A stretch of 64,000 nucleotides of DNA, taken from assembly GCF_030547245.1 (NCBI RefSeq), contig NZ_JAUOQT010000003.1:546623-610622 (forward strand), given 5' to 3'. Below are positions 12,809-64,000 of the stretch, in pieces. Every line of letters begins with the position of its first letter. Position 1 is the first letter of the stretch. Both the position numbers and the translations under genes were made by a program. This DNA is from Oceanihabitans sp. 2_MG-2023. Its GTDB lineage: Bacteria > Bacteroidota > Bacteroidia > Flavobacteriales > Flavobacteriaceae. Under the pieces are notes generated by a model, which worked only from the letters and a program-made list of their open reading frames with translations, searched no databases and had not been told where the DNA came from.

Positions 12809-15037
12809 TTAAAATGTATAACTAATACTTCCCTTTATAAAAAATGGTGTTCCTGGAGTAAAGTGAATTTCTTCCACCGATTGCACTTCATTTTGTAATC
12901 TAGATTCTGTTGCAAATTGTGTTTCATTCCAATCTACATCAAATAGATTTTCTATAACCATACCTAATGTAATTTTGTTAAAAGTGTAGTTTACGTTAAA
13001 ATCGGTTACAAAATATCCTTCTGCTACAATAGAATTATCTTCGTTTGCTGGTCTATCATCTATAAAGCGATATCTAATTCCTCCAGAAAAACCTTTTAAA
13101 TCTTTAACAGACAGACCTCCAGCCATAGTAAAATCTGGTGCTAAGGGAATATAATTCTCTCCTTCTGGATCCTCTACACTTCTTGCATGTGTTATTGTTG
13201 CATCTGTATCAAAATACAACCAATCATTTAGTTGGTATCGCAATCCTAAATCCAATCCGTAACGTTCACTTTTTCCGCTTGGTTCTACAATTCCTGCATC
13301 TCCAACATATACAAATTCTTGTTCTGAAAACAAATACCATAAAGCAGAATTAAAAACTACTTTTGAAAATGGTTTCCAAATATTTCCTACATCTACACCA
13401 TATGCACGTGGTAATATTTCTTCTCCTCCTTGTGCTACTACTACTCTAGTATCGTTAGAGTGAAAACCAATCCCAGACTTTACAAAGAGTTGTAAATTAT
13501 CATTCGCATCGTAGAACAAATTAAGCTTCGGACTAACTATTGCTTTTGTTTCCGATTGTGTGTTTAAACTAGGTTGTAATTGATCGTTATATAAAAACTT
13601 AAAATAATCTAGACGTAATGCTGGACTTACTGTAAGTTTACCAAACTCGAAATCTGCAGAAACAAATGCGTCTAAGTTGGTTTGATTTATATCTCCTAAC
13701 TGTACATTTTCAAGAAGTGTTGTTTTATTTAAAGTTTTAGATAACTCCACATCTTTAGATATATCGTGTCTTAAACCAACTCCGTAATTTAATTGTACTG
13801 GCACTGCTCCTAAATACACATCTTTAGTTATTTCTGTATTTACTCCAAAAATGTTTCTATTTTCCTTTTGTTTTATTTGATCTCCATTTACTGGGTCTTC
13901 TAAAAAGAAAGTAAAATTAGAATACAATTCAAAAGCATAATGGGAATAAAAAGCATTCGCTTTAAGCGTTGTATTATCCGAAATGTATTTGTTATATACT
14001 ACATTAAAATTAGTTCGTTCTGTGTTTCCGCCTTCGGTATCATCTATAGCACCAAAACGTGAAATGTTACCGTTATCAACTTCTCTTTGTGGAATTTGCC
14101 CAGAAGCATCCCAACGACTTGTAAAATGAGAGGCCGTTAAAGAAAGTTTATTATTATCTGGAGTATACATTACATATTTTCCAAAAAGGTTCAGTCTATT
14201 AAAATTTTGAGGAGACTCAAATGGTCCATCTGTTGCAATATATTCTGCTGCTATATAAGCATTTTGATTTTTTTTATCTTCCAACAAATTAAACATAGCC
14301 AATGTTTTTAAGGAATTAAATTGTCCTGCGGAGAGTTTAATTGTACTTTCTTTTAAATGGTCTTTTGTTGAAAAATCTACATATCCAGCAGTATTAAAAT
14401 CGCCTTGCTTACCGTAATAAGGTCCTTTTCCAAAATCTATATTGTTAATGGTCTCTGGAATTACAAAATGTAAATCACTATATCCTTGACCATGAGCGTG
14501 AGACACCATATTTACTGGCATACCATCTACACCAATAGAAATATCTGTTCCATGATCTATATCGAAACCTCTTAAAAAAAGTTGTTCTGCTTTACCACCT
14601 CCTGCATGTTGACCAATGATTAATCCTGGCACTTTTTGTAATATTTCTTGTGAAGAATTTACTGGTGTTGTAGCTAAATCTATTTTAGTAATGGTATTAA
14701 CTGCATTTAATTGTTCGGTAAGAACCAATTCTTCTAACATTAATGTTTTACTTTCTAGGGCTACCTCTAAACCTTCATTTATATGTTTGTTATTTATAAT
14801 TATTGTCTTCTTTTTAAAACCAAGTAACCCAATATTTATGGTGTCTCCTATTTTGTTATCTAATAAAATAAATGTACCGTTTGGTAAAGTATGTGCATGT
14901 GTGTTTGCATTGGTATTAAACACATAAACATTTTCTAATGGTTGATTAAAGTTATCTGTTACTTTCCCTTTAATATTTTGTCCATTCATTGTAAAAAAAT
15001 AACAAAATAAGATAGCTATTACTATTATATTTTTCAT
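12809..15037 (-). CDS. TonB-dependent receptor (with DUF4331/TPR genes)
   Basis: Outer-membrane transporter of 742 residues. It has a signal peptide (1-19), a carboxypeptidase-like beta-sandwich (about 20-100), a plug domain (about 115-230, with FLRGFDIDHGTD) and a 22-strand type barrel ending in ISYTF, the usual terminal aromatic residue. The plug carries a His-rich stretch, VSHAHGQGYSD, that could bind metal. It lies 24 bp after the TPR gene in a run with two DUF4331-type genes. Substrate unknown; co-occurrence suggests the upstream secreted proteins are partners. Confidence 0.92.
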   Translation of the reverse strand: MKNIIVIAILFCYFFTMNGQNIKGKVTDNFNQPLENVYVFNTNANTHAHTLPNGTFILLDNKIGDTINIGLLGFKKKTIIINNKHINEGLEVALESKTLMLEELVLTEQLNAVNTITKIDLATTPVNSSQEILQKVPGLIIGQHAGGGKAEQLFLRGFDIDHGTDISIGVDGMPVNMVSHAHGQGYSDLHFVIPETINNIDFGKGPYYGKQGDFNTAGYVDFSTKDHLKESTIKLSAGQFNSLKTLAMFNLLEDKKNQNAYIAAEYIATDGPFESPQNFNRLNLFGKYVMYTPDNNKLSLTASHFTSRWDASGQIPQREVDNGNISRFGAIDDTEGGNTERTNFNVVYNKYISDNTTLKANAFYSHYAFELYSNFTFFLEDPVNGDQIKQKENRNIFGVNTEITKDVYLGAVPVQLNYGVGLRHDISKDVELSKTLNKTTLLENVQLGDINQTNLDAFVSADFEFGKLTVSPALRLDYFKFLYNDQLQPSLNTQSETKAIVSPKLNLFYDANDNLQLFVKSGIGFHSNDTRVVVAQGGEEILPRAYGVDVGNIWKPFSKVVFNSALWYLFSEQEFVYVGDAGIVEPSGKSERYGLDLGLRYQLNDWLYFDTDATITHARSVEDPEGENYIPLAPDFTMAGGLSVKDLKGFSGGIRYRFIDDRPANEDNSIVAEGYFVTDFNVNYTFNKITLGMVIENLFDVDWNETQFATESRLQNEVQSVEEIHFTPGTPFFIKGSISYTF

Positions 15038-17837: not shown

Positions 17838-19013
17838 ATGAATCCATCGGCAAGTGGCTGGATAAACAAACTGCTAAAAATACTAGAGACCAACAATACT
17901 CTAGAACAAACAACAACACATGCTTTTTATTTAGCATTAAGAGAAAGCGGATTTATTTATGGAAATAATATAGATATAGTTAAAAAAATATTTGTAAAAA
18001 AAGATTTCACAAATGAAGAAATTTGCAAAACCAATCTCTTTCTATCCTTATATTTCTCTCATAAAAAGTTAGATGATTCTGAAAATTTTATAGATAGTAT
18101 CATCGAATTCTATACTAAAATTGAAGAATATAAGTCCTCCTACTTTAAAGAGCTTTTAGGAGAAAAAAAATCTGCAGGATTACTAGAAAAAATAATTCAT
18201 AAACGTGTTTTAATTGATGACAACCTCATCTCTAAAAGCTTTAATTATTTTATTACTAATGCATTATTATATATAGATGTTCTTGCTTACAAGCATTACT
18301 TAAAGACTAAAACGATAACCGTAAATTATATTAAGAATTTAGAATCTTCGCTAGAAACTATTGTTTTATCTGCATTAAATGCTAAACAAACCAAGAGTGA
18401 ATATGATACTAGTTTAATAAAGTTATTTGAGCAATCTTTACGTTTTCAAAAAAAATACAACATTACATATAATGAAGCGATTACATTTATTCAAAGTGAA
18501 TTAGAAACACAATACATACTAGATATGGCGTGTATGGCTACTTGGACAGACGCTTCTATAGACAAAAAGGAATATGAATTTTTAAATCAGTTAGGAATAG
18601 ATTTAAAACTAGAACAACAAAAAGTTAACGAAGCTATTACAGCAATAACGTTATTTTACAATACCTATAAAGAACAAATTATTTTACTTGGATCTAAAAA
18701 TATTGTAAAAACTTTTTACGATAATTCTAGTAAAATGGTTAGCAAGCTGATTTCTAGAAATAGCAAACGTCTATATAAAGAATTAGGTGAAAGTAAAGAA
18801 TTGATGCTCTTAATTTCGCAATCTACCATTAGAGATTTAAATGATGAAGAACAGAAAAAAGTACAGGGACAGTTATTAGATATATTTAAATCGATACCAA
18901 GTTTAGCTATATTTTTACTTCCTGGTGGCGCTTTATTACTTCCTTTAGTAATAAAATTTATACCCAAATTATTACCTAGCGCTTTTGATGATAATAGAAT
19001 TGAAGACGATTAA
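17838..19013 (+). CDS. LETM1-related protein
   Basis: A 391-residue protein rich in helices. The C-terminal part (about 350-391), with DIFKSIPSLAIFLLPGGALL and a hydrophobic stretch ending IPKLLPSAF, resembles the LETM1 membrane segment and the start of its ribosome-binding-like domain. In Flavobacteriia such proteins are annotated as LETM1-related biofilm-associated proteins; I cannot test the biofilm link. The middle (about 225-290) has a TerB-like helical pattern (DMACMATWTDASIDKKEYEF). It is convergent with the LytTR gene, 2 bp apart. Confidence 0.7.
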   Translation: MNPSASGWINKLLKILETNNTLEQTTTHAFYLALRESGFIYGNNIDIVKKIFVKKDFTNEEICKTNLFLSLYFSHKKLDDSENFIDSIIEFYTKIEEYKSSYFKELLGEKKSAGLLEKIIHKRVLIDDNLISKSFNYFITNALLYIDVLAYKHYLKTKTITVNYIKNLESSLETIVLSALNAKQTKSEYDTSLIKLFEQSLRFQKKYNITYNEAITFIQSELETQYILDMACMATWTDASIDKKEYEFLNQLGIDLKLEQQKVNEAITAITLFYNTYKEQIILLGSKNIVKTFYDNSSKMVSKLISRNSKRLYKELGESKELMLLISQSTIRDLNDEEQKKVQGQLLDIFKSIPSLAIFLLPGGALLLPLVIKFIPKLLPSAFDDNRIEDD

Positions 19014-19015
19014 AA

Positions 19016-19771
19016 CTACTCTAACCATGTTTTAAAATCTTTAACTCGCTCTCTAGCAACTATTACTTCTTGCTCGTTATAGGAATTTAATTTTATTTGC
19101 AAACGCGAATTAGTATAACTTACCATATCTTTTATTGCCTGAATGTTTACAAAAAACTTTCTGTTAATTCGGAAAAATTGTTGTGGTTCTAATTCGTCTG
19201 TTAATTGTTCTAGTGTGGTATCAAGTAAATAATTTCTTCCTTCTGAAGTATGCAAATAAGTACCTTTGTTTTCACTATAAAAGCACTCAATATCTTCAAT
19301 ATTTATTAATTTTAAATGCTGGCCTACTTTTACCGAAAAACGTTTTTTGTATTCGCGTTCTATTGGGTTTACAAGTAATTTTTTAATATCATTAAAATCT
19401 AAAGTAACACTTTTTTGTTCTGGGATTCTGGATTTGTACTTAGAAACTGCTTTTTCTAAATCTTCTTCATCTATAGGTTTCAATAAATAATCGATACTAT
19501 TTAACTTAAAAGCTTGTAATGCATATTCATCATAAGCTGTTGTAAATATTACAGCCGATTGAATATCTATGGTTTCAAAAATCTCAAAAGACAATCCATC
19601 ACTTAATTGAATATCTAAAAATATAAGATCGGGATGCGCATTATTTTGAAACCAAGCTATAGACTCTTCCACAGAGTGCAACATAGTATCTGCTGTTAGG
19701 TTAAGACTATCTAACATACGCTGCAATCTTCTAGCAGATGGTTTTTCGTCTTCTATAATAAGTACTTTCAT
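19016..19771 (-). CDS. LytTR-family response regulator
   Basis: DNA-binding response regulator of 251 residues. The receiver domain (1-118) has the acidic pair in IIEDE, phospho-acceptor Asp53 (FLDIQ) and the switch Thr and Lys (FTTAYDEYAL, LLKPID). The LytTR domain (about 145-250) has KRFSVKVGQHLKLI and QFFRINRKFFVNIQAIKDM. It is the natural partner of the LytS-like kinase two genes upstream, with two 2TM-domain genes between them. Confidence 0.95.
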   Translation of the reverse strand: MKVLIIEDEKPSARRLQRMLDSLNLTADTMLHSVEESIAWFQNNAHPDLIFLDIQLSDGLSFEIFETIDIQSAVIFTTAYDEYALQAFKLNSIDYLLKPIDEEDLEKAVSKYKSRIPEQKSVTLDFNDIKKLLVNPIEREYKKRFSVKVGQHLKLINIEDIECFYSENKGTYLHTSEGRNYLLDTTLEQLTDELEPQQFFRINRKFFVNIQAIKDMVSYTNSRLQIKLNSYNEQEVIVARERVKDFKTWLE

Positions 19772-56017: not shown

Positions 56018-56572
56018 ATGGCAAGAACTCCATCTAACATGCTTCCTTTAGGAACAAAAGCACCAGATTTTAAATTACTAGATACTGTTTCTAAAGCATA
56101 CTTAACCCTTCAGCAATTAAAAGGAAAACAAGCAACAGTAATTATGTTTATATGCAACCATTGCCCTTTTGTTATTCATGTAAACCCTGCTTTGGTAGAA
56201 ATAGCTAAAAAATACGAAGCACAAGGTATTCATTTTATTGCAATTTCTAGTAATGATGCAGAAAACTATCCGCAGGATGCTCCAGAAAAAATGACAACAC
56301 ACGCTAAAAAAAACGGCTATCCGTTTTCGTATTTATATGATAAAACACAAGACGTTGCTAAAGCCTACGACGCTGCATGCACACCAGATTTTTATGTTTT
56401 CAACTCCGAATTAAACTTAGTTTATCGAGGACAGTTAGACGATTCAAGACCTGGAAATGGCGTAGCTGTTTCAGGATTAGATTTACGACATGCTTTAGAT
56501 TGTATTTTAAGTAAAACAGAAAACGAGAAACTACAAAAACCAAGTATTGGTTGTAATATAAAATGGAAGTAA
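56018..56572 (+). CDS. Thioredoxin-like (AhpC/TSA) protein
   Basis: A 184-residue cytoplasmic protein. The thioredoxin-fold motif is CNHCP (Cys46, Cys49) in a VIMFICNHCPFV context, and AKAYDAACTPDFYVF contains the cis-Pro. It belongs to a common group of peroxiredoxin-like reductases. It is the last ordinary gene before the integrase, 59 bp away. Confidence 0.9.
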   Translation: MARTPSNMLPLGTKAPDFKLLDTVSKAYLTLQQLKGKQATVIMFICNHCPFVIHVNPALVEIAKKYEAQGIHFIAISSNDAENYPQDAPEKMTTHAKKNGYPFSYLYDKTQDVAKAYDAACTPDFYVFNSELNLVYRGQLDDSRPGNGVAVSGLDLRHALDCILSKTENEKLQKPSIGCNIKWK

Positions 56573-56631
56573 ATCCATTTGCTTTTGTGTGGTATATTTT
56601 CTATATTTATAGGTCGATTTTTAAATAAACT

Positions 56632-57798
56632 ATGCAAAATACAATCATTACACTAAAGCCTAAATACCATCATAAAGAGGAGCAAATTTTAATTTGTTTT
56701 CCATATGATGAAGCTGCTATCCAATTAGTAAGAACAATTGCTGGTAGAAAATGGAGTAAAAGTTTACAAAGCTGGTATGTAAAACGTTCATCAGAATCGT
56801 TAGAAACTATAAAAAAAGTACTACATAAGTATATAATTGATGATTCTATTCTTAAAAATAGTACACCTATAAAAACATATCACTATTCAACTTTACTTAC
56901 CAAAGATCAAAAAAAAATATTAAATGGGTTTTATAAATATTTAAAAGGAAAAAGATATAGTCAAAGTACTTTAAACACCTATACTTTTTTAACAGCAGAT
57001 TTTTTAGCGTACTACCACAAAGAAGAAATAAATGGTTTAAGCAATAGACATGTAGAGCTTTATATTGAAGATATCTATATAAAAAGGCAATATTCTATTA
57101 GTAAACAGCGTCAATTTATTAGTGCTTTAAAGCTTTTTAAACGTTATTACCCAAATATTTCAATAGAAGAACTACTACTTGTTAGACCTAAAAGAGATAA
57201 AAAATTACCAACCGTTTTATCTTTAGAGGAAGTAATTAAAATAATAAGTGTTACAAAAAACCTAAAGCATCGTGCTATAATTGCATTAATATATTCTTGT
57301 GGGTTGCGCATTAGCGAATTAATAAATTTAGAACTAAGTCATATTGATATAGAGCGAAGACAACTAACAATAAAAAATGCAAAAGGAAGAAAAGATCGTT
57401 ATGTAATAATAGCAGATAGTTTTTTACCATTACTACACAATTATCTAAATACTTATAAGCCAAAAATATATTTTGCTGAAGGCCAAAAAAATGAGAATAA
57501 ATACAGTCCTGAAAGCATACGAGCATTTTTAAACAAAAACTGTAAGTTAGCACAAATAAAAAAAAGAGTAACACCACACACACTTAGACATAGTTATGCT
57601 ACACATTTATTAGAACAAGGAACAGACATACGATACATTCAAGCATTATTAGGGCATTCGAAACCGGAAACCACTATGATATATACTCATGTAGCAAAGA
57701 AAGATTTACTTGCAATAGCAAGTCCATTAGACCATGCTGTAAAGCAAATTATGGAAACCCGTAAACAGCAGGGAAAAGTTGGGATATCCAGAACGTAA
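56632..57798 (+). CDS. Integron-like tyrosine recombinase (non-IntI type)
   Basis: A site-specific recombinase of 388 residues, longer than XerC/D (about 298) because of an extra N-terminal part (1-85; GRKWSKSLQSWYV recalls a HARP-like fold, uncertain). A SAM-like core-binding domain follows (about 90-175), then the catalytic domain with the full set: Arg226, Lys251, His316, Arg319, His342 and nucleophile Tyr351 (IYTHV). There is no IntI-specific insert between Arg226 and His316. After the nucleophile, SPLD (364-367) matches the tail of integron integrases. It reads toward the cassette array and is the only recombinase here, so it is the likely cassette integrase. Confidence 0.88.
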   Translation: MQNTIITLKPKYHHKEEQILICFPYDEAAIQLVRTIAGRKWSKSLQSWYVKRSSESLETIKKVLHKYIIDDSILKNSTPIKTYHYSTLLTKDQKKILNGFYKYLKGKRYSQSTLNTYTFLTADFLAYYHKEEINGLSNRHVELYIEDIYIKRQYSISKQRQFISALKLFKRYYPNISIEELLLVRPKRDKKLPTVLSLEEVIKIISVTKNLKHRAIIALIYSCGLRISELINLELSHIDIERRQLTIKNAKGRKDRYVIIADSFLPLLHNYLNTYKPKIYFAEGQKNENKYSPESIRAFLNKNCKLAQIKKRVTPHTLRHSYATHLLEQGTDIRYIQALLGHSKPETTMIYTHVAKKDLLAIASPLDHAVKQIMETRKQQGKVGISRT

Positions 57799-57810
57799 GA
57801 ACCAAAAAAT

Positions 57811-57841
57811 GTTATATTTGTTAGGATATAACCAGTTGTAA
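57811..57841 (+). other. Candidate attI site
   Basis: GTTATA and TATAAC (57811-57816, 57827-57832) form an inverted repeat next to the core CCAGTTGTAA, where GTTGTAA (57835-57841) is the presumed crossover core, cut between G57835 and T57836. The position 37 bp after the integrase stop fits an attI. Cassette 1 begins here. Confidence 0.55.
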
Positions 57842-58336
57842 ATTATTTAAAAAAACAAAGAAATAGGGATTCTAAGCGAAAAAAATATTGAGATTTAAGA
57901 GCGTATAAAGTAGAAGTGAAAATGGCAAATATGATGCAAACTGACTTTACAATCTGACCGAAAATGTTACGGAAATTGACCTAAAAAATGTTAGCTTGTA
58001 TTGCCAAAATGACTCAAAACAGTATGAGTTGGAATTGCCAAACGGAACAGAAATATTAGCGGAATTTGACTTTACAAACTGACCACAAATATTGCGCAAA
58101 CTGACTTCATAAAATGAACATAGGAACCTGAGAAAAAACAATTCACAACAGTAGCTATAGTTAATGCTTAGGCTTGCGATTTGGGCGAAGGTTGGTGTGT
58201 ATTTGGAATGTCACCAAAATCATTCTGATTTTGTATTAATTCAAAAAAAAAGGTAAAACAAAACATAATGTTTTTGGCTTGTGTTAACCGTTTAACTTTT
58301 GTAATTTTAAAAACAGCACTAACCATAGCCGCAACG
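57836..58336 (+). mobile_element. Gene cassette 1 (501 bp)
   Basis: Starts at the TT of GTTGTAAATTATTT and ends at the G of CAACGTT (58336). Its first 14 bases pair in 12 of 14 positions with 58136-58149. The only reading frame is a frameshifted small one. The remainder is attC1. Confidence 0.7.
57922..58082 (+). pseudogene. Decayed small coding frame in cassette 1
   Basis: An ATG at 57922 opens a short frame that ends at 57957. A second frame, open from 57945 to the TGA at 58080-58082, encodes 45 codons with protein-like sequence, YELELPNGTEILAEFDFTN at its end. A one-base shift around 57945 would join them into about 53 residues. It is either a broken gene or chance; no family is recognised. 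Confidence 0.35.
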
Positions 58337-58349
58337 TTGTGCATAATGC
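58136..58349 (+). repeat. attC1-like site
   Basis: Outer arms 58136-58149 and 58336-58342 enclose an inverted repeat: GCTATAGTTAATGCT (58154-58168) pairs with AGCACTAACCATAGC (58315-58329), 13 of 15, with A-C mismatches on the top strand only. Length about 200 bp, long for attC. The right side ends in the core CAACGTTGTGC. Confidence 0.65.
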
Positions 58350-58597
58350 GAAAATCGTGCTAAAATTTAACATTTGAACAAAAAAAGCCAACCCACAAAC
58401 AGCACATTTGTTTTTTTTTCAACACATAAGCCAACTCTGAAAAAACAAAAGAGCAGTTTATTTGCCAACGCTCAAATTGATGCTAATATTAAACTGAAAA
58501 AAAAATGAGTTGTTCATAACAAAAAAACAATATATTCGTTAAATAGGTATTGTCTAGTTGTTGACAATCTCATTTATCAATAATAAATAATAATAAA

Positions 58598-59038
58598 ATG
58601 AAAAAAGTTATTGCGGCATTAATTGTAATGATTGTAAGTATAAATACAATAATTGCTCAAGAATGGCAAACAGATATTAACGTTGCAAAAGAAATTGCAT
58701 CAAAAGAAAGTAAACCCATAATATTAGTATTTCAAGGTTCAGATTGGTGTGCACCTTGTATTAAACTTGACAGAGAAATTTGGAGCACAGAAACTTTTAA
58801 AAAGTATGCAAAAGATAATTATGTTATGCTAAAGGCAGATTTTCCTAGAAGAAAGAAAAACATATTGTCAGAAAAACAAACAAAAGCGAATGCATTACTT
58901 GCAGAAAAATACAATAAACAAGGTTTTTTTCCTTTTGTTGTAGTACTTGACTCTAATGGCCAAGTGTTAGGAGAAAGTAGTTATAAAAAGACTACACCAG
59001 AAAATTATATTAAAGAATTAAACGCTTTTACAAAGTAA
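58598..59038 (+). CDS. Periplasmic thioredoxin-family protein
   Basis: A 146-residue secreted protein: signal peptide (1-20, TIIAQ) then a thioredoxin fold with the active site WCAPC (Cys51, Cys54) in FQGSDWCAPCIKLDREIW, and FFPFVVVLD containing the cis-Pro. It probably keeps thiols of the neighbouring Cys-rich lipoprotein reduced. First gene of the cassette 2 operon, 1 bp before the ApbE start. Confidence 0.9.
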   Translation: MKKVIAALIVMIVSINTIIAQEWQTDINVAKEIASKESKPIILVFQGSDWCAPCIKLDREIWSTETFKKYAKDNYVMLKADFPRRKKNILSEKQTKANALLAEKYNKQGFFPFVVVLDSNGQVLGESSYKKTTPENYIKELNAFTK

Positions 59039-59039
59039 T

Positions 59040-60020
59040 TTGAAACATATAATCACTTTATTATTTTTATTCTCAATAATGGGTTGTACAGCACAACAAC
59101 CATATAAGAGAACACTCAAATTAATGGGTAGTCGATTTGACATTACTGTTGTTGCAAACGATTCTATAAAAGCAAACATATATATCGATACTGCTGTTGC
59201 AGAAATATCAAGAATTGAAAATTTAATTTCATCTTGGGATAATACTTCTCAAACATCCGAAATTAATCGCAATGCAGGAATTAAACCTGTGAAAGTTGAC
59301 AAAGAATTGTTTGATTTAATTGAAAGAGCAATAGGCATTTCAAAATTGACTGATGGTGCTTTTGACATTAGCTATGCTTCAATGGACAGAATTTGGAAGT
59401 TTGATGGCAGTATGGCCAAAATGCCTTCAAAAGAGGAAATAACAGCTTCAGTAGAAAAAGTTGGCTATCAAAACATAGTTTTAGATAAAATGAATAGTAC
59501 AATCTTTCTTAAATTAGAAGGAATGAAAATAGGTTTTGGTGCTATTGGAAAAGGATATGCAGCTGATATGGCAAAAAATCTACTTATTTCAAAAGGTGTA
59601 CCTTCTGGAATTATTAATGCTTCTGGAGATATGAATACTTGGGGAAAACAACCTAATGGTAATGAATGGAAAGTAGCCATCACAAATCCAATGGATAAAA
59701 ATAAAGTCTTTGCATTATTACCAATTACAAATGGAGCTGTAGTTACTTCTGGAAATTATGAAAAATATGTAAATTTTAATGGCAAACGATACACACATAT
59801 TATTGACCCAAGAACTGGATATCCTTCTACCGGAATTATAAGTGTAACCGTATTTGCACCAAAAGCAGAATTGGCAGATGCACTTGCAACTTCAGTATTT
59901 GTTATGGGAAAAGAAGCTGGTTTAGACCGCATTAATCAATTACCAAAAATAGAATGTATTATCATTGATGATAAAGGAAATATCACGAAATCAAAGAATA
60001 TAGAAATAGATAAGTTATGA
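59040..60020 (+). CDS. apbE: FAD:protein FMN transferase (ApbE), lipoprotein
   Basis: Transfers FMN from FAD to a Thr or Ser of target proteins outside the cytoplasm. The TTG start is chosen because it gives a lipoprotein signal (lipid Cys16, SIMGC). 326 residues. The family blocks are present: FDISYASMDRIWKFDG, GFGAIGKGYAADMA, INASGDMNTWG, THIIDPRTGYP and ADALATSVFVMG, which hold the FAD and Mg sites. Its target here is not obvious; the DUF3570 protein is a candidate. Confidence 0.94.
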   Translation: MKHIITLLFLFSIMGCTAQQPYKRTLKLMGSRFDITVVANDSIKANIYIDTAVAEISRIENLISSWDNTSQTSEINRNAGIKPVKVDKELFDLIERAIGISKLTDGAFDISYASMDRIWKFDGSMAKMPSKEEITASVEKVGYQNIVLDKMNSTIFLKLEGMKIGFGAIGKGYAADMAKNLLISKGVPSGIINASGDMNTWGKQPNGNEWKVAITNPMDKNKVFALLPITNGAVVTSGNYEKYVNFNGKRYTHIIDPRTGYPSTGIISVTVFAPKAELADALATSVFVMGKEAGLDRINQLPKIECIIIDDKGNITKSKNIEIDKL

Positions 60021-60229
60021 TTAAAAAATTTATATGTGCTACATTAATTACTACTTGTCTTAGTAGTTGCGTTGTAGTTAAAGAATACGAAAAAGTAAAT
60101 ATAAATGACCCAGATATGGCATTGGCAGACAAGAAAGCTGACCGAAATGTTTCCACGATGCATTCATATCGTGAAGCTGCTGTAGGAGCAAATGGAGGGA
60201 AAACTGGAGGAGGCTGTGGCTGTAACTAA
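60017..60229 (+). CDS. DUF4266 small lipoprotein with CGC tail
   Basis: A 70-residue lipoprotein precursor (lipid Cys18, LSSC). Its conserved part has NDPDMALADKKADRN and HSYREAAVGANGG, and it ends in GGGCGCN, a Gly-rich tail with two Cys that could bind a metal, carry a modification or make a disulfide. It overlaps the ApbE stop by 4 bp (ATGA). The family regularly accompanies ApbE and DUF3570. Function unknown. Confidence 0.85.
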   Translation: MIKKFICATLITTCLSSCVVVKEYEKVNINDPDMALADKKADRNVSTMHSYREAAVGANGGKTGGGCGCN

Positions 60230-60242
60230 TAAAACAAGAAAG

Positions 60243-61556
60243 TTGAAAAAATTTATTTTGATATTATGCGTATTTGCTTTTGTTAAATCTTATTCGCAAA
60301 CAGAACAAGACTCGACAAAAGTTTATAAAAAACGTGTATTAGAAACTACAGAAGTAGATTTTCTAACAAGTTACTACTCGCAAGATGGAGATAATGCTGC
60401 GGTAAGTGGCGGAATAGGCACTGAAGAATTAACAGATGTTACAGGAACCTTTGTAGTTTCAATACCTTTAAATGATGATGATGTTCTAACCATTGACGCT
60501 GGAGTTTCTGCTTACACATCAGCATCTTCAAGTAACGTTGGACCTTTTGATGATGGGCCAGCAGACCCATTTCAAGCATCTTCTGGCGCATCAAGTAGCG
60601 ACCTTTGGGCAAATTTAACAGGAAGTTATAGTCATAGTTCTGACGATAGAAATGATATTTGGTCTGCAAAAATATCTATTTCATCAGAATACGATTATTT
60701 TTCAGCTGGTGTTGGTGGTAGTTACACAAAATTATTTAATGAAAAGAATACAGAATTAAGTGTAAATGCAAATGTTTATATTGATACTTGGAACGCCATT
60801 TACCCAACCGAATTAAGACCATTCGGAGAAAATGGCAATGGTTTAAATGATAATTTGTTTACTCAAAATACAATTACAGGAAACACAAATTACAATCCTA
60901 GATTTAGTGAATTTAAAGATGAAGGTCGTAATTCTTATTCTTTAGGATTTGGCTTCTCTCAAATTCTTCATAAAAATGTGCAAGGTTCTTTAGCACTAGA
61001 TTTTGTAAAACAAGATGGATTATTATCTACACCATTTCAAAGAGTTTATTTTAGCGATGTTGCAGATTCATTCATAGATAATTTTCAACTTGCAGATGCA
61101 GTTGAGCGTTTACCAGATTCAAGATTTAAAGTAGCTGTTGGTGGTCGTTTAAATTGGTATTTAAATGAAACATTTACAGTAAGAACATTCTATCGCTATT
61201 ATTTTGATGATTGGGGAATATCTTCACATACTGCAAGTATTGAAGTGCCAATTAAAATTACTGATAAGTTTACTTTGTATCCATCTTACAGATTTTATAA
61301 TCAAACAGCAGCCGATTATTTTAGACCTTATGAAAGTACTTTATCTACCGATGACTTTTATACTTCTGATTATGACCTTTCCGAATATTCTGCTAACCAA
61401 ATTGGTTTTGGAGTGTCGTACACAGATATTTTCGCAAAGGCACATATTTGGAAACTAGGTCTAAAAAGTATTGACTTAAAATTTTATCAGTACGATAGAG
61501 ATACATCTTTTAGTTCTAATATTGTTACAGCAGGATTTAAGTTTGTAATGGATTAA
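60243..61556 (+). CDS. DUF3570 outer-membrane beta-barrel protein
   Basis: From the TTG at 60243 (437 aa) it has a signal peptide (about 1-18, SYSQ); the ATG at 60192 would add a non-signal extension inside DUF4266. The rest is a barrel-like alternation with a final FKFVMD. It has the block SSGASSS near residue 114-119. SGAS resembles the ApbE flavinylation motif (SGA followed by T or S). Last gene of the cassette 2 operon. Confidence 0.85.
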   Translation: MKKFILILCVFAFVKSYSQTEQDSTKVYKKRVLETTEVDFLTSYYSQDGDNAAVSGGIGTEELTDVTGTFVVSIPLNDDDVLTIDAGVSAYTSASSSNVGPFDDGPADPFQASSGASSSDLWANLTGSYSHSSDDRNDIWSAKISISSEYDYFSAGVGGSYTKLFNEKNTELSVNANVYIDTWNAIYPTELRPFGENGNGLNDNLFTQNTITGNTNYNPRFSEFKDEGRNSYSLGFGFSQILHKNVQGSLALDFVKQDGLLSTPFQRVYFSDVADSFIDNFQLADAVERLPDSRFKVAVGGRLNWYLNETFTVRTFYRYYFDDWGISSHTASIEVPIKITDKFTLYPSYRFYNQTAADYFRPYESTLSTDDFYTSDYDLSEYSANQIGFGVSYTDIFAKAHIWKLGLKSIDLKFYQYDRDTSFSSNIVTAGFKFVMD

Positions 61557-61713
61557 TGGAAATTTGTTTGTTTCAAGCCAACACTAAAAAGCCATACACA
61601 TTTGCAATTCGCATCATCCAACACTACACCAAAAATTGCAAAAGAGTATGTCTCGCCAACGCACACATTAGAACTAAATAACAAACATCGGAAAACCAAG
61701 CTGAATTTGAAAA

Positions 61714-61920
61714 GCACTATGCACAACAACGTATATGGCTCATAGCTAATTAGTTGCTTAATTCAAAGTTAAGGCATATTTGAAAAGTCGCCAAATTTTT
61801 AAATTTGACGATTTCCAATAAATAAGATAAATAGTAAAATTTAAAAATCTGGCTTGTGCTCAATCCGAAAATAATTTCATAATTTGCACGCTACGAGCCA
61901 TATACAAAACCGTTGTAACC
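61714..61920 (+). repeat. attC2-like site
   Basis: GTATATGGCTCATAGC (61731-61746) pairs with GCTACGAGCCATATAC (61890-61905), 15 of 16; the one mismatch is A-C on the top strand. Outer arms are GCACTATGCACAAC on the left and GTTGTAACC on the right. About 200 bp. Confidence 0.68.
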
Positions 61921-63014
61921 AATTTGAGAAAAACTTAAGATGAATAGATTAGCATTTATATTCTCAATTTTATTATTGATTTCTTGTCACAAGGAAAATC
62001 AACCTGAGCTAACTATAAATTCTACACACATAAAATACTTTGGATTTACATTGATTGATACCTATTGGGATGACCCAACCGATAATCAAACAAAAACAAA
62101 TTATATTGACGAAGTATATGAGTTCTCTAATATTGCTGACATTTTAGTCGTAAACCCAACAGATAACATTGTTGCAAGAATGGACGAAATGAATAATTTA
62201 CAAGTAAAAAGTATATTACATATTTCGGAGATATTTTTTGAATTAATAGGTAACTCAAGCCCTTCTGGAGTAGAATATGGTTTGAGAGCTGACTTTCAAG
62301 TAAGATGGAACGAATTTATTAGTATTAATAATTTACAAGTCAATCAAAGTTTAATTCAGACTTTCTACATTGGGGAAGAACCAACTTGGAATGGAATATC
62401 GTTTTCTGAACTAAAATCAGCAACCGACTATATTAAGTCAACTTTACCTGATGTCCCGATAATGATAATTGAAGCTTATCCTGCAGTTGACCAACTTCAA
62501 ATCCCAAATTCTGTAGATTGGATTGGATTTGACCATTATTTTATTAAAGACCCAAAAACAAATACCGATTATTTAAACGAATTAAATACTTTAAAATCAA
62601 AGTTTTCTAATAATGACCAAAAACTAGTAATTGTTATGGACACTCATTTTATGAGTTCATTTCACGAAGATATTGGTGGAATAGAATTAAACGAAATGCT
62701 CGAAGTAACTAACAGTTATTATGAATTGGCAAAATCGGAACCTAAAACAATTGCTATCATTGGTTATTTTTGGCCAAGTGGTTTTGATTTACCGAATTCT
62801 ATAGGAGCACGAAATATGCCACAAACTATTAAACAAAATTATATCCGAATAGGAAAACAAATAACAAACAAGGAATAAAAACTGGTTACAACACCGTGTA
62901 TAATTAATTGCTTTGGCAAGTGCTTATTTGGAAAATTCCTTCGGAATTTTCTCGCGTTCGTTTTTGTTTACTAAATTAGTTGCTGAAACACGCAACTAAC
63001 CATACACAACAACG
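61913..63014 (+). mobile_element. Gene cassette 3 (1102 bp)
   Basis: Starts GTTGTAACC (61912-61920) and its attC begins with GGTTACAAC (62884-62892), a 9 of 9 match. It holds one gene that starts 27 bp after the cassette edge, so it is likely transcribed from an outside promoter or one in attC2. Confidence 0.75.
61940..62878 (+). CDS. Cassette-borne lipoprotein, possible TIM-barrel hydrolase
   Basis: A 312-residue lipoprotein (lipid Cys16, LLISC). I do not recognise a family. The repeated beta-alpha pattern and patches YIGEEPTWNG (acidic residue after a strand), WIGFDHYF and IVMDTHFM suggest a glycoside-hydrolase-like TIM barrel. The gene fills almost the whole cassette, as is usual for cassette genes. 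Confidence 0.65.
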   Translation: MNRLAFIFSILLLISCHKENQPELTINSTHIKYFGFTLIDTYWDDPTDNQTKTNYIDEVYEFSNIADILVVNPTDNIVARMDEMNNLQVKSILHISEIFFELIGNSSPSGVEYGLRADFQVRWNEFISINNLQVNQSLIQTFYIGEEPTWNGISFSELKSATDYIKSTLPDVPIMIIEAYPAVDQLQIPNSVDWIGFDHYFIKDPKTNTDYLNELNTLKSKFSNNDQKLVIVMDTHFMSSFHEDIGGIELNEMLEVTNSYYELAKSEPKTIAIIGYFWPSGFDLPNSIGARNMPQTIKQNYIRIGKQITNKE

Positions 63015-63022
63015 TTACAAAC
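62884..63022 (+). repeat. attC3-like site
   Basis: GTGTATAATTAATTGC (62896-62911) pairs with GCAACTAACCATACAC (62992-63007), 13 of 16, all three mismatches A-C on top. The tip is a perfect 9-bp stem, GAAAATTCC / GGAATTTTC (62931-62951). The right edge AACAACGTT has the crossover core. Confidence 0.75.
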
Positions 63023-63468
63023 AAGTACTCCGAAATTGTAACTCCAAACGAAATTGAGTTACTAAAGTTTAAACTTCGGAACTTGTTCTCACTCAAACTC
63101 TGAATATCGCGATTTTTTTTGAATTTTAAAGAAGTATTTTCCAAAACAACCAAATAAGTTTTTCAAAATTTACAGAATCGGAATCTCACTCGCTCGGAAT
63201 TTCTTACTCTAACGGATTTTGAGCTTGTTTGCGGAATATTTAACTCTTATAGCTTATTCTGATTACTCAAACTCGCTTAATGTGATTACTCGAACTTCAA
63301 CGCTCTTTATCTAATCGTGATTACTCAAATGTGTCGTACCAGTTTATAACAACGTGTATATTTTATTGCTAGTTCTAGCCTACTTACGAAAATCCTCGCG
63401 GATTTTCTATTCGGTTTTTATTTGCTAACTTAGTTGCTTAAACACGCAACAAAGCATACACAAAACCG
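63015..63468 (+). mobile_element. Gene cassette 4 (454 bp, no clear gene)
   Basis: Starts GTTACAAAC (63014-63022) and its attC begins GTTTATAAC (63342-63350), 8 of 9. Reading frames are at most about 30 codons on the plus strand. Three copies of GATTACTC(A/G)AA occur at 63261, 63284 and 63319. It may be an RNA or promoter cassette, or a decayed gene. Confidence 0.65.
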
Positions 63469-63476
63469 TTAGCATT
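63342..63476 (+). repeat. attC4-like site
   Basis: GTGTATATTTTATTGC (63354-63369) pairs with GCAACAAAGCATACAC (63446-63461), 13 of 16. The tip stem is GAAAATCC / GGATTTTC with a TCGC loop. It is close in sequence to attC3 and nearly identical to the start of attC5. Confidence 0.75.
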
Positions 63477-63580
63477 CATATTTTCTTTAGATTTTCAAAA
63501 ACGAAAATTCAGGTAATATGAAATTAAAATTTTTAATAAACTTTTTTTAGTTCATTACCATTTATACATTTTTTTCCCAC

Positions 63581-63930
63581 AAGCTTTTAAGATTAATTAG
63601 GAAAAGATAGCCTGAAATGCTGAACGTAAATAAATCCATAGCTCCGATTTATGGATTTTACTCAAGAAACTTTTAAGATTAATAGAATGAAATAACCTGA
63701 AATATTAAACGGATAATTAATTCTTAGCTTCGATTCATGGATTTGTAACAAGAAACTTTTGAGATCAAAAGAATAAAAAACTCTGAAATACGGAACGGAA
63801 ATATTAAACTTGAAATACGGAACGCAAAAATAATTCCTAGCTTCGGTTCATGGATTTTACCCAAGAAACTTTTAAAATTAAAAGAATGAAATAACTTGAA
63901 ATGCTGAATGTAAAATGCTTAATAAAACTA
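63581..63930 (+). repeat. Imperfect tandem repeats in cassette 5
   Basis: Four copies of a unit starting near 63581, 63664, 63750 and 63863 (83, 86 and 113 bp apart). Shared words are AAGAAACTTTTAAGATTAA, a CTGAAAT-x-GAAC block and, in units 1-3, TAGCTTCGATTCATGGATTT or variants. Unit 3 is longer because a block near TGAAATACGGAACG is doubled. Confidence 0.8.
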
Positions 63931-63940
63931 AACCATACGT

Positions 63941-64000
63941 AATGCTAACAACGTGTATATTTTATTGCTAGTTCTCGCCTACTTACGAAAATCCTCGCGG
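63941..64000 (+). repeat. attC5-like site (partial)
   Basis: The left arm and tip region only. From 63953 to 64000 it matches attC4 (63354-63401) in 47 of 48 bases. The right arm lies outside the window. Confidence 0.7.

Follow-up and report, generated by a model that had tools for sequence, protein, structure and literature searches.

The window analysed here is a stretch of 64,000 nucleotides from Oceanihabitans sp. 2_MG-2023 (Flavobacteriaceae; contig NZ_JAUOQT010000003.1, positions 546,623 to 610,622, forward strand). Its right part, from position 56,632 onward, holds the gene of a tyrosine recombinase, here called the integrase, and a candidate integron-like array of cassettes. Five units follow the gene on the same strand, each beginning with GTT, and the gene itself reads toward the array, as a preliminary description of the locus had said (Table 1). 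The right end of the window is also the end of contig C23 of the assembly (genome G000) and lies within the site of the fifth unit, so the array far exceeds five units. An Rfam search of positions 56500-64000 gave no match at E 0.1. Genomes and loci that were compared carry the prefixes G and L below.

In integrons, the first bases of a cassette complete the outer arm of that cassette's own site. The units studied here obey the same logic. In 41 cassettes of G000, the seven bases that follow GTT were compared with the reverse complement of the left edge of the same cassette's site: 85% of positions agree, as opposed to 36% in other pairs and 39% for the start of the next cassette (33 pairs), and the sum for own cassettes was reached in none of 20,000 permutations. 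Five single-contig genomes of other genera supplied 221 further cassettes, 196 of which show six or seven matches out of seven, as opposed to 3% of other pairs; altogether 1350 of 1547 positions match, where 5000 permutations reached at most 648. The match is 89% in G308, 87% in G406, 91% in G361 and 77% in G413. Since 95 different 7-mers are involved, the matching is pairwise and does not reflect a common consensus. Within the window, the complementarity claimed in the preliminary description recurs in all five units (counts over 14 bases in Table 1; over the first nine bases, 8/9 in unit 4 and 9/9 in unit 5, as claimed), and chance is excluded because the wider array of 41 cassettes and the 221 cassettes of other genomes behave alike.

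The whole genome of G000 (3.69 Mb in 30 contigs) contains 38 matches to the site at 63348, most of which fall on the small contigs C5-C9 or close to the end of C29, where each contig has them on one strand. Read in the direction of the array, 42 full sites were delimited on seven contigs, and the span from AAC to GTT is 118-125 nt in 38 of them. Unit 2, with a site of 187 nt, represents a minority, and the long hairpins of 135-210 bp, presented earlier as a general trait, turn out to be exceptional. We infer that the small contigs belong between the end of C23 and that of C29. The stretches of the array together amount to roughly 70 kb. Cassette 5 has a copy, 94.6% identical, on contig C7 behind a different site. 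Contig C5 (L101) carries within the array a site-free stretch of about 12 kb (on the reversed contig, from the site at 2053 to that at 14730), which encodes another tyrosine recombinase (C5:9726-10262; open frame of 406 aa) and is perhaps an inserted mobile element; phmmer gave no match between this protein and the integrase of the window. A small separate cluster of about three sites, near position 108849 of contig C28 (L108), resembles a cluster of attC sites lacking integron-integrases (CALIN), and a tyrosine recombinase scan of C28 found no integrase on that contig.

The structure of the sites was examined in the aligned bottom strands of 46 sites, nine from G000, including two within the window, and 37 from relatives. 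A structure of 19 pairs, comprising the AAC/GTT pairs and an inner stem of 16 pairs, is paired in 97.8% of cells. Eight pairs show changes on both sides, and the covariation score is 0.263 as compared with 0.092 after shuffling (0 of 500 as high); slid versions of the structure score 0.05-0.09, the structure being favoured over them by its derivation from the same 46 sequences. The unpaired spacers are unequal, with 6 nt on one side and 3 nt on the other, and the alignment shows an extra base at columns 21-22 in some sites; both features are candidates for the extrahelical strand markers of IntI-class sites. Bottom-strand pairs comprise 736 Watson-Crick pairs, 118 G-T wobbles, two A-C mismatches and 17 others. 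The top strand swaps these wobbles for A-C mismatches and is therefore unpaired where the bottom strand pairs. Two G-T wobbles are fixed or almost so, in 46 and 43 of the 46 sites. With DNA folding parameters the bottom strand is the more stable in 40 of 42 sites, with one tie and one reversal, and the mean difference is 2.3 kcal/mol. In the outer arms of the 221 cassettes, the mismatches divide into 214 bottom-strand wobbles, 19 top-strand wobbles and 341 others; 156 of the 214 fall at position 11, and elsewhere the count is 58 to 19. By prediction and covariation the sites are imperfect inverted repeats whose bottom strand folds into a hairpin, as is expected of an integron, and the sequence patterns point to selection acting on the folded bottom strand.

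The arrays of other genomes are large and uniformly oriented. G308, G406 and G361 have 54, 93 and 64 sites, respectively, in the 60-80 kb examined in each, all behind the integrase and all but two co-oriented (52, 93 and 64 sites of one orientation); smaller arrays occur in G413 (18 sites) and G393 (five), where 20-40 kb were examined. Of 262 cassettes, 197 have their longest open reading frame (ORF) of at least 50 aa in the direction of the array, five have it in the opposite direction, and 60 lack such a frame. Identical cassettes are repeated, twice or more, within G308 and within G406, the latter having 78 distinct among 92 cassettes. One 333-nt cassette body of G406 (L181-L184) exists in five identical copies, plus near-copies. 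Two duplicate pairs of G308 are 100% identical in body and site, and their flanking 60 nt are 42-52% identical before and 30-43% after the cassette; one of three duplicate pairs of G406 has a left neighbour that is 98% similar. A cassette encoding a cation-efflux family protein is shared between G000 and G406, which belongs to another genus (72-920 of the reversed contig of L105 and 18496-19344 of the G406 array). It is 98.2% identical over 848 nt, while the two integrases are 54% identical and the flanks 43% ahead of the cassette and 55% behind it. These genomes share no more than five cassette pairs, the other four being 75-89% identical. The units move whole and end sharply at GTT, in support of the earlier interpretation as an integron-like cassette array.

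The point at which cassettes join the integrase gene can be recognised from its relatives. A stretch like CATATAACnAGTT lies right 3' of the integrase stop in most of them, and the sequence past its GTT differs. This attI-like pattern fits 23 of 26 sequences (the window and L006-L030), the exceptions being L017, L020 and L029. L006 and L007 (93% identity across 4.2 kb) agree as far as this GTT and differ past it, and the same holds for the two Confluentibacter species L012 and L014. In the compared pairs, the homology that covers flank and integrase runs out somewhere from about 40 nt ahead of the integrase stop (L026/L030) to 60 nt past it, and matches farther on lie at or around sites. Relatives have 5' flank, integrase and attI-like stretch in common and diverge from GTT on, so that the suspected variation of cassette content was found; the comparison indicates that the GTT beside the integrase is the probable joining point. 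The motif TAnnTT[TA]G occurs 12-34 nt ahead of this junction in 11 of 23 sequences (22 relatives plus the window); shuffles give 0.6. TAnnTTTG is the form of the Bacteroidetes -7 box, and the box may on this ground be the cassette promoter. In L016, L018 and L019 the attI-like stretch contains palindromes (for example around AGTACTTTAGTACT) that partly coincide with the presumed promoter box; the integrase or a regulator may bind to them. In L143 and L144, two Chryseobacterium plasmids, an extra hairpin-like repeat stands between the integrase stop and the attI-like GTT.

The association of the integrase with the sites extends across 41 relative loci, 16 of which have site hits at E < 1e-3. 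Each of the 51 hits falls on the 3' side and on the strand of the integrase, which upholds the tie between the two proposed in the preliminary description, and no site was hit at the same threshold in 331 kb of 5' flank, both strands searched. In 18 of the 41 loci the sequence stops within 1.2 kb on the 3' side of the integrase, and in two it does so on the 5' side, a pattern that contig breaks in repeats would produce. Of the 23 loci that extend farther on the 3' side, 15 carry sites; the eight without profile sites (L022, L031, L036, L037, L038, L040, L042 and L043) are mostly distant or short. A nucleotide profile built on the system's own sites misses divergent ones, such as those of L036 and L038, and a detector was therefore used that relies on AAC, GTT and the geometry of the stem only. 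In 37 of the 41 loci it found 65 cassettes downstream on the strand of the integrase (164 kb); its noise is one downstream hit on the other strand and four and one upstream hits (324 kb per strand). It recovered cassettes in L022 (two), L036 (two) and L038 (four), as well as on the plasmid of Chryseobacterium sp. SNU WT5, where the sequences of the sites are quite different. In a looser form, three to four of the eight rows of L143 look real, L145 gives no cassette, and L031 and L144 give chance-like matches only.

The integrase resembles those of integrons in its core and departs from them in other features. Its core aligns to the integron integrase 2a3v with 108 bits, and it scores 198 bits with TIGR02249 (integron integrase), under the cut-off of 265. 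From the KGRKDR motif to the HxxR histidine it has 59 residues, where all 13 IntI compared have 100, so the insert of IntI is missing, as had been stated; it is absent from all 44 rows of the window's and neighbouring kinds, which have 53-64 residues. In a tree, IntI form one supported clade with the window kind outside it, and the window kind groups with IntI apart from XerC, XerD and XerA (support 98, in a quick tree that did not include the subgroup set of PMC8138268). The tree was made with a quick method from 13 of the 30 IntI fetched, its outgroup does not form one side of any branch, and the placement of the long rows (XerA, XerC/D, L040, L041) is unsure. XerA is the top solved-structure match by sequence and by fold, the whole-model fold search spanning residues 90-353 only.

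The N-terminal extension noted earlier is real, with about 96 residues ahead of the core-binding domain. Its residues 1-75 form a compact predicted domain (predicted local distance difference test, pLDDT, 83 for the integrase model). Modelled apart, this domain resembles in predicted fold the N-terminal domain of XPB and the HARP domain of SMARCAL1. In a search of its profile against solved structures, SMARCAL1 HARP came third with a weak E of 0.16. Pfam HARP (PF07443) gave no match in the N-terminal piece of the window, and its cut-off was reached by one of nine such pieces (L046, 25.2 against 25). In a wider set of 32 pieces, seven match HARP at E up to 1 and eight match DUF5710. Rows of the HIV integrase core in the N-terminal fold search (probability 0.13-0.30) were taken as chance.

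The search for integrase and sites across Flavobacteriaceae that the preliminary description had proposed, made with one genome per genus, found sites in 128 of 149 genomes (E up to 1e-6) and the integrase profile in 101 (1e-60). At least 93 of these 101 have sites; seven genomes are listed with the profile and no sites (G302, G312, G355, G371, G382, G021 and G418). A strict protein threshold, which gives 48 of 149, undercounts integrases, and 13 of 15 chosen site-rich genomes without a strict hit have a relative at about E 1e-87 or better. The class-wide figure of 151 of 295 includes proteins that lack the N-terminal part and was not used as a count of the system. In several site-rich genomes (e.g., G342, G413, G423 and G400) the integrase frame is broken by a stop. 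Canonical IntI over the cut-off occurs in one of 295 Bacteroidia genomes, compared with 83 of 296 in the phylum sample, and the canonical IntI and the new type look complementary in distribution.

An oriented array, an attI-like site, a linked integrase and moved cassettes, which together mark a functional integron, were all found. On the sequence evidence it is highly probable that the locus is a cassette array with its own non-IntI tyrosine recombinase, an enzyme that probably gathers and rearranges cassettes in the manner of an integron, through the predicted recombination of folded bottom strands. We read the system as a second, non-IntI type of integron. It is not assigned to the IntI class because tests for the defining insert, for a place in the clade and for the R-box consensus all came out negative. 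The R boxes of IntI-class attC sites follow the consensus RYYYAAC / GTTRRRY; in the present system GTTRRRY stands at 30 of 262 cassette starts, and the edges likewise conform in 30 of 262.

Several observations weigh against this reading. Four of the 41 own cassettes match their site edge at only one to three of seven positions, so not all units are intact, and the four cassettes of G393 show a mean match of only 50%. Some integrases have few or no sites nearby: G103 has three and G029 two within 40 kb, G411 has two and G415 none within 20 kb, and L022, L031 and L145 have no or merely weak sites. Conversely, at least 34 of the 48 genomes without an integrase profile hit carry sites; these may be CALIN-like. 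The sites of the cation-efflux pair are only 86% identical, which simple whole-unit transfer does not explain; exchange between sites is the only explanation that we can offer. Lastly, position 11 is A in 258 of 262 cassette starts, and shuffled partners give an equal count of its wobble, which is thus a fixed letter pair and no covariation.

Other accounts of the locus have to be considered. The array could fall within the known class, as a canonical integron whose IntI is unusual, and the alignment of the core to 2a3v, the 198 bits with TIGR02249 and the identical logic of the cassettes speak for it. That score is below the cut-off, however, and the absence of the insert from 44 of 44 rows, the position outside the supported IntI clade and the presence of GTTRRRY at just 30 of 262 starts make this account very unlikely. 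The enzyme might instead act in the manner of Xer at dif, on double-stranded sites with a GTT core, the hairpins being mere by-products. Such an action would account poorly for the covariation of 19 pairs and the wobble skew of 118 against 2, or for the single site per cassette whose outer arm matches the cassette's own start, and we regard it as improbable. It is also conceivable that some other enzyme, such as an HUH transposase, or homologous recombination among the repeats dispersed them, with the integrase a mere neighbour. The many genomes that carry sites without an integrase at the threshold used would agree with this, and the exchange of sites in the transferred cassette resembles homologous recombination; nevertheless, the placement of all 51 sites, in 16 of 41 loci, on the 3' side and the strand of the integrase, the insertions that begin at one conserved GTT by the integrase gene, and the unit ends at GTT leave this explanation only the slightest credence.

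In the favoured reading of a non-IntI integron, a free circular cassette with a complete site would fold its bottom strand, and integrase monomers would bind the arms of the folded site. A single-strand exchange with the attI-like site would follow at GTT, the junction would be resolved by replication, and the cassette, having become the first of the array, would be transcribed from the box ahead of the junction. More tentatively, the wobble pairs and the unequal spacers of 6 and 3 nt may do the folded-strand recognition that is the task of I2 in IntI, and the N-terminal domain perhaps reads these wobbles and spacers. It is possible, as a bolder view that we would not press, that Bacteroidota hold a second, I2-independent lineage of integrons in which the strand is chosen by G-T wobbles, which turn into A-C mismatches on the wrong strand, and gripped by an added HARP/XPB-like, junction-binding domain, either as a parallel invention or as the state that gave rise to IntI integrons.

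Chromosomal integrons, of which the Vibrio superintegrons are an example, share with the present system the head-to-tail cassettes, the hairpin at the cassette end, the GTT junction, the folding of the bottom strand, the outer arm completed in the circle, an attI-like site by the integrase, tens of cassettes and one ORF orientation. They differ in that the integrase here has no I2-bearing insert, lies outside the IntI clade and has a long N-terminal domain, and in that the R box is mostly not GTTRRRY, is extended, and has a fixed wobble at position 11, with the 6/3-nt spacers. XerA resolves chromosome dimers at double-stranded dif. XerA-type recombinases share the insert-free length of the core as well as the closest solved structure; they have no cassette array. 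The HARP domain of SMARCAL1 and the XPB N-terminal domain are similar in predicted N-terminal fold, with weak Pfam HARP matches. In Treponema integrons, the integrase is likewise transcribed toward attI, along the direction of the cassettes, but an intI is used and the R site of T. brennaborense is GTTAGGT (PMC3607928). Smyshlyaev et al. 2021 described an integron-like subgroup of simple tyrosine recombinases and considered the insertion essential for integron function; the accessible portion of that paper names no cassette arrays for members without the insertion (PMC8138268).

With IntegronFinder 2.0, a single complete integron was reported for Bacteroidetes proper, that of Salinibacter ruber (PMC9024848), and archaeal IntI retain the additional domain (PMC9668308). 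The I2 insert of IntI has been presented as the innovation that opened single-strand recombination, a causality without direct proof since deletion of I2 kills IntI1 (PMC7790495). An I2-less cassette system with selected folded bottom strands would, if true, make this question testable. It would further imply a large, uncounted pool of mobile cassettes in Flavobacteriaceae, overlooked by searches that require IntI, and the related array on a Chryseobacterium plasmid would be part of it. No description of the system was found among the papers listed in searches of the open-licence literature, subscription papers and preprints not being covered, and its novelty is provisional.

Table 1. Features of the integrase and cassette region in the window
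Feature	Position	Strand	Remarks
Integrase gene	56632..57798	+	tyrosine recombinase, 388 aa; Pfam Phage_integrase and SAM_4
Integrase N-terminal domain (residues 1-75)	56632..56856	+	predicted HARP/XPB-like fold
attI-like site	57812..57837	+	junction GTT 57835-57837; stretch conserved in relatives 3' of the integrase stop, with divergence from GTT on
Possible cassette promoter box TAnnTTTG	57813..57820	+	within the attI-like stretch
Cassette 1	57835..58335	+	no + strand ORF of at least 60 aa; start/edge complementarity 12/14
Cassette 1 terminal site, attC-like, degenerate	58147..58338	+	placed by eye: AAC 58147, GTT 58336; outside the reach of the search that delimited the 42 full sites
Cassette 2	58336..61911	+	four ORFs; complementarity 13/14
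Cassette 2, thioredoxin-like ORF	58598..59038	+	
Cassette 2, ApbE ORF	59040..60020	+	
Cassette 2, DUF4266 ORF	60017..60229	+	
Cassette 2, DUF3570 ORF	60192..61556	+	
Cassette 2 terminal site	61725..61914	+	long form
Cassette 3	61912..63013	+	312-aa ORF 61940-62878; complementarity 13/14
Cassette 3 terminal site	62890..63016	+	
Cassette 4	63014..63467	+	no + strand ORF of at least 60 aa; complementarity 11/14
Cassette 4 terminal site	63348..63470	+	part of the query for the own-genome site search (38 matches)
Cassette 5	63468..64000	+	cut by the contig end; left arm of own site 63947-64000; complementarity 9/14

As to the contents of the cassettes in the window, the 312-aa ORF of cassette 3 was searched against Pfam and NCBIfam and gave nothing at E 0.001. 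The four-gene set of cassette 2 (58598-61556) is long for a cassette, and with its thioredoxin-like, ApbE, DUF4266 and DUF3570 members it looks like an operon for extracytoplasmic flavinylation.

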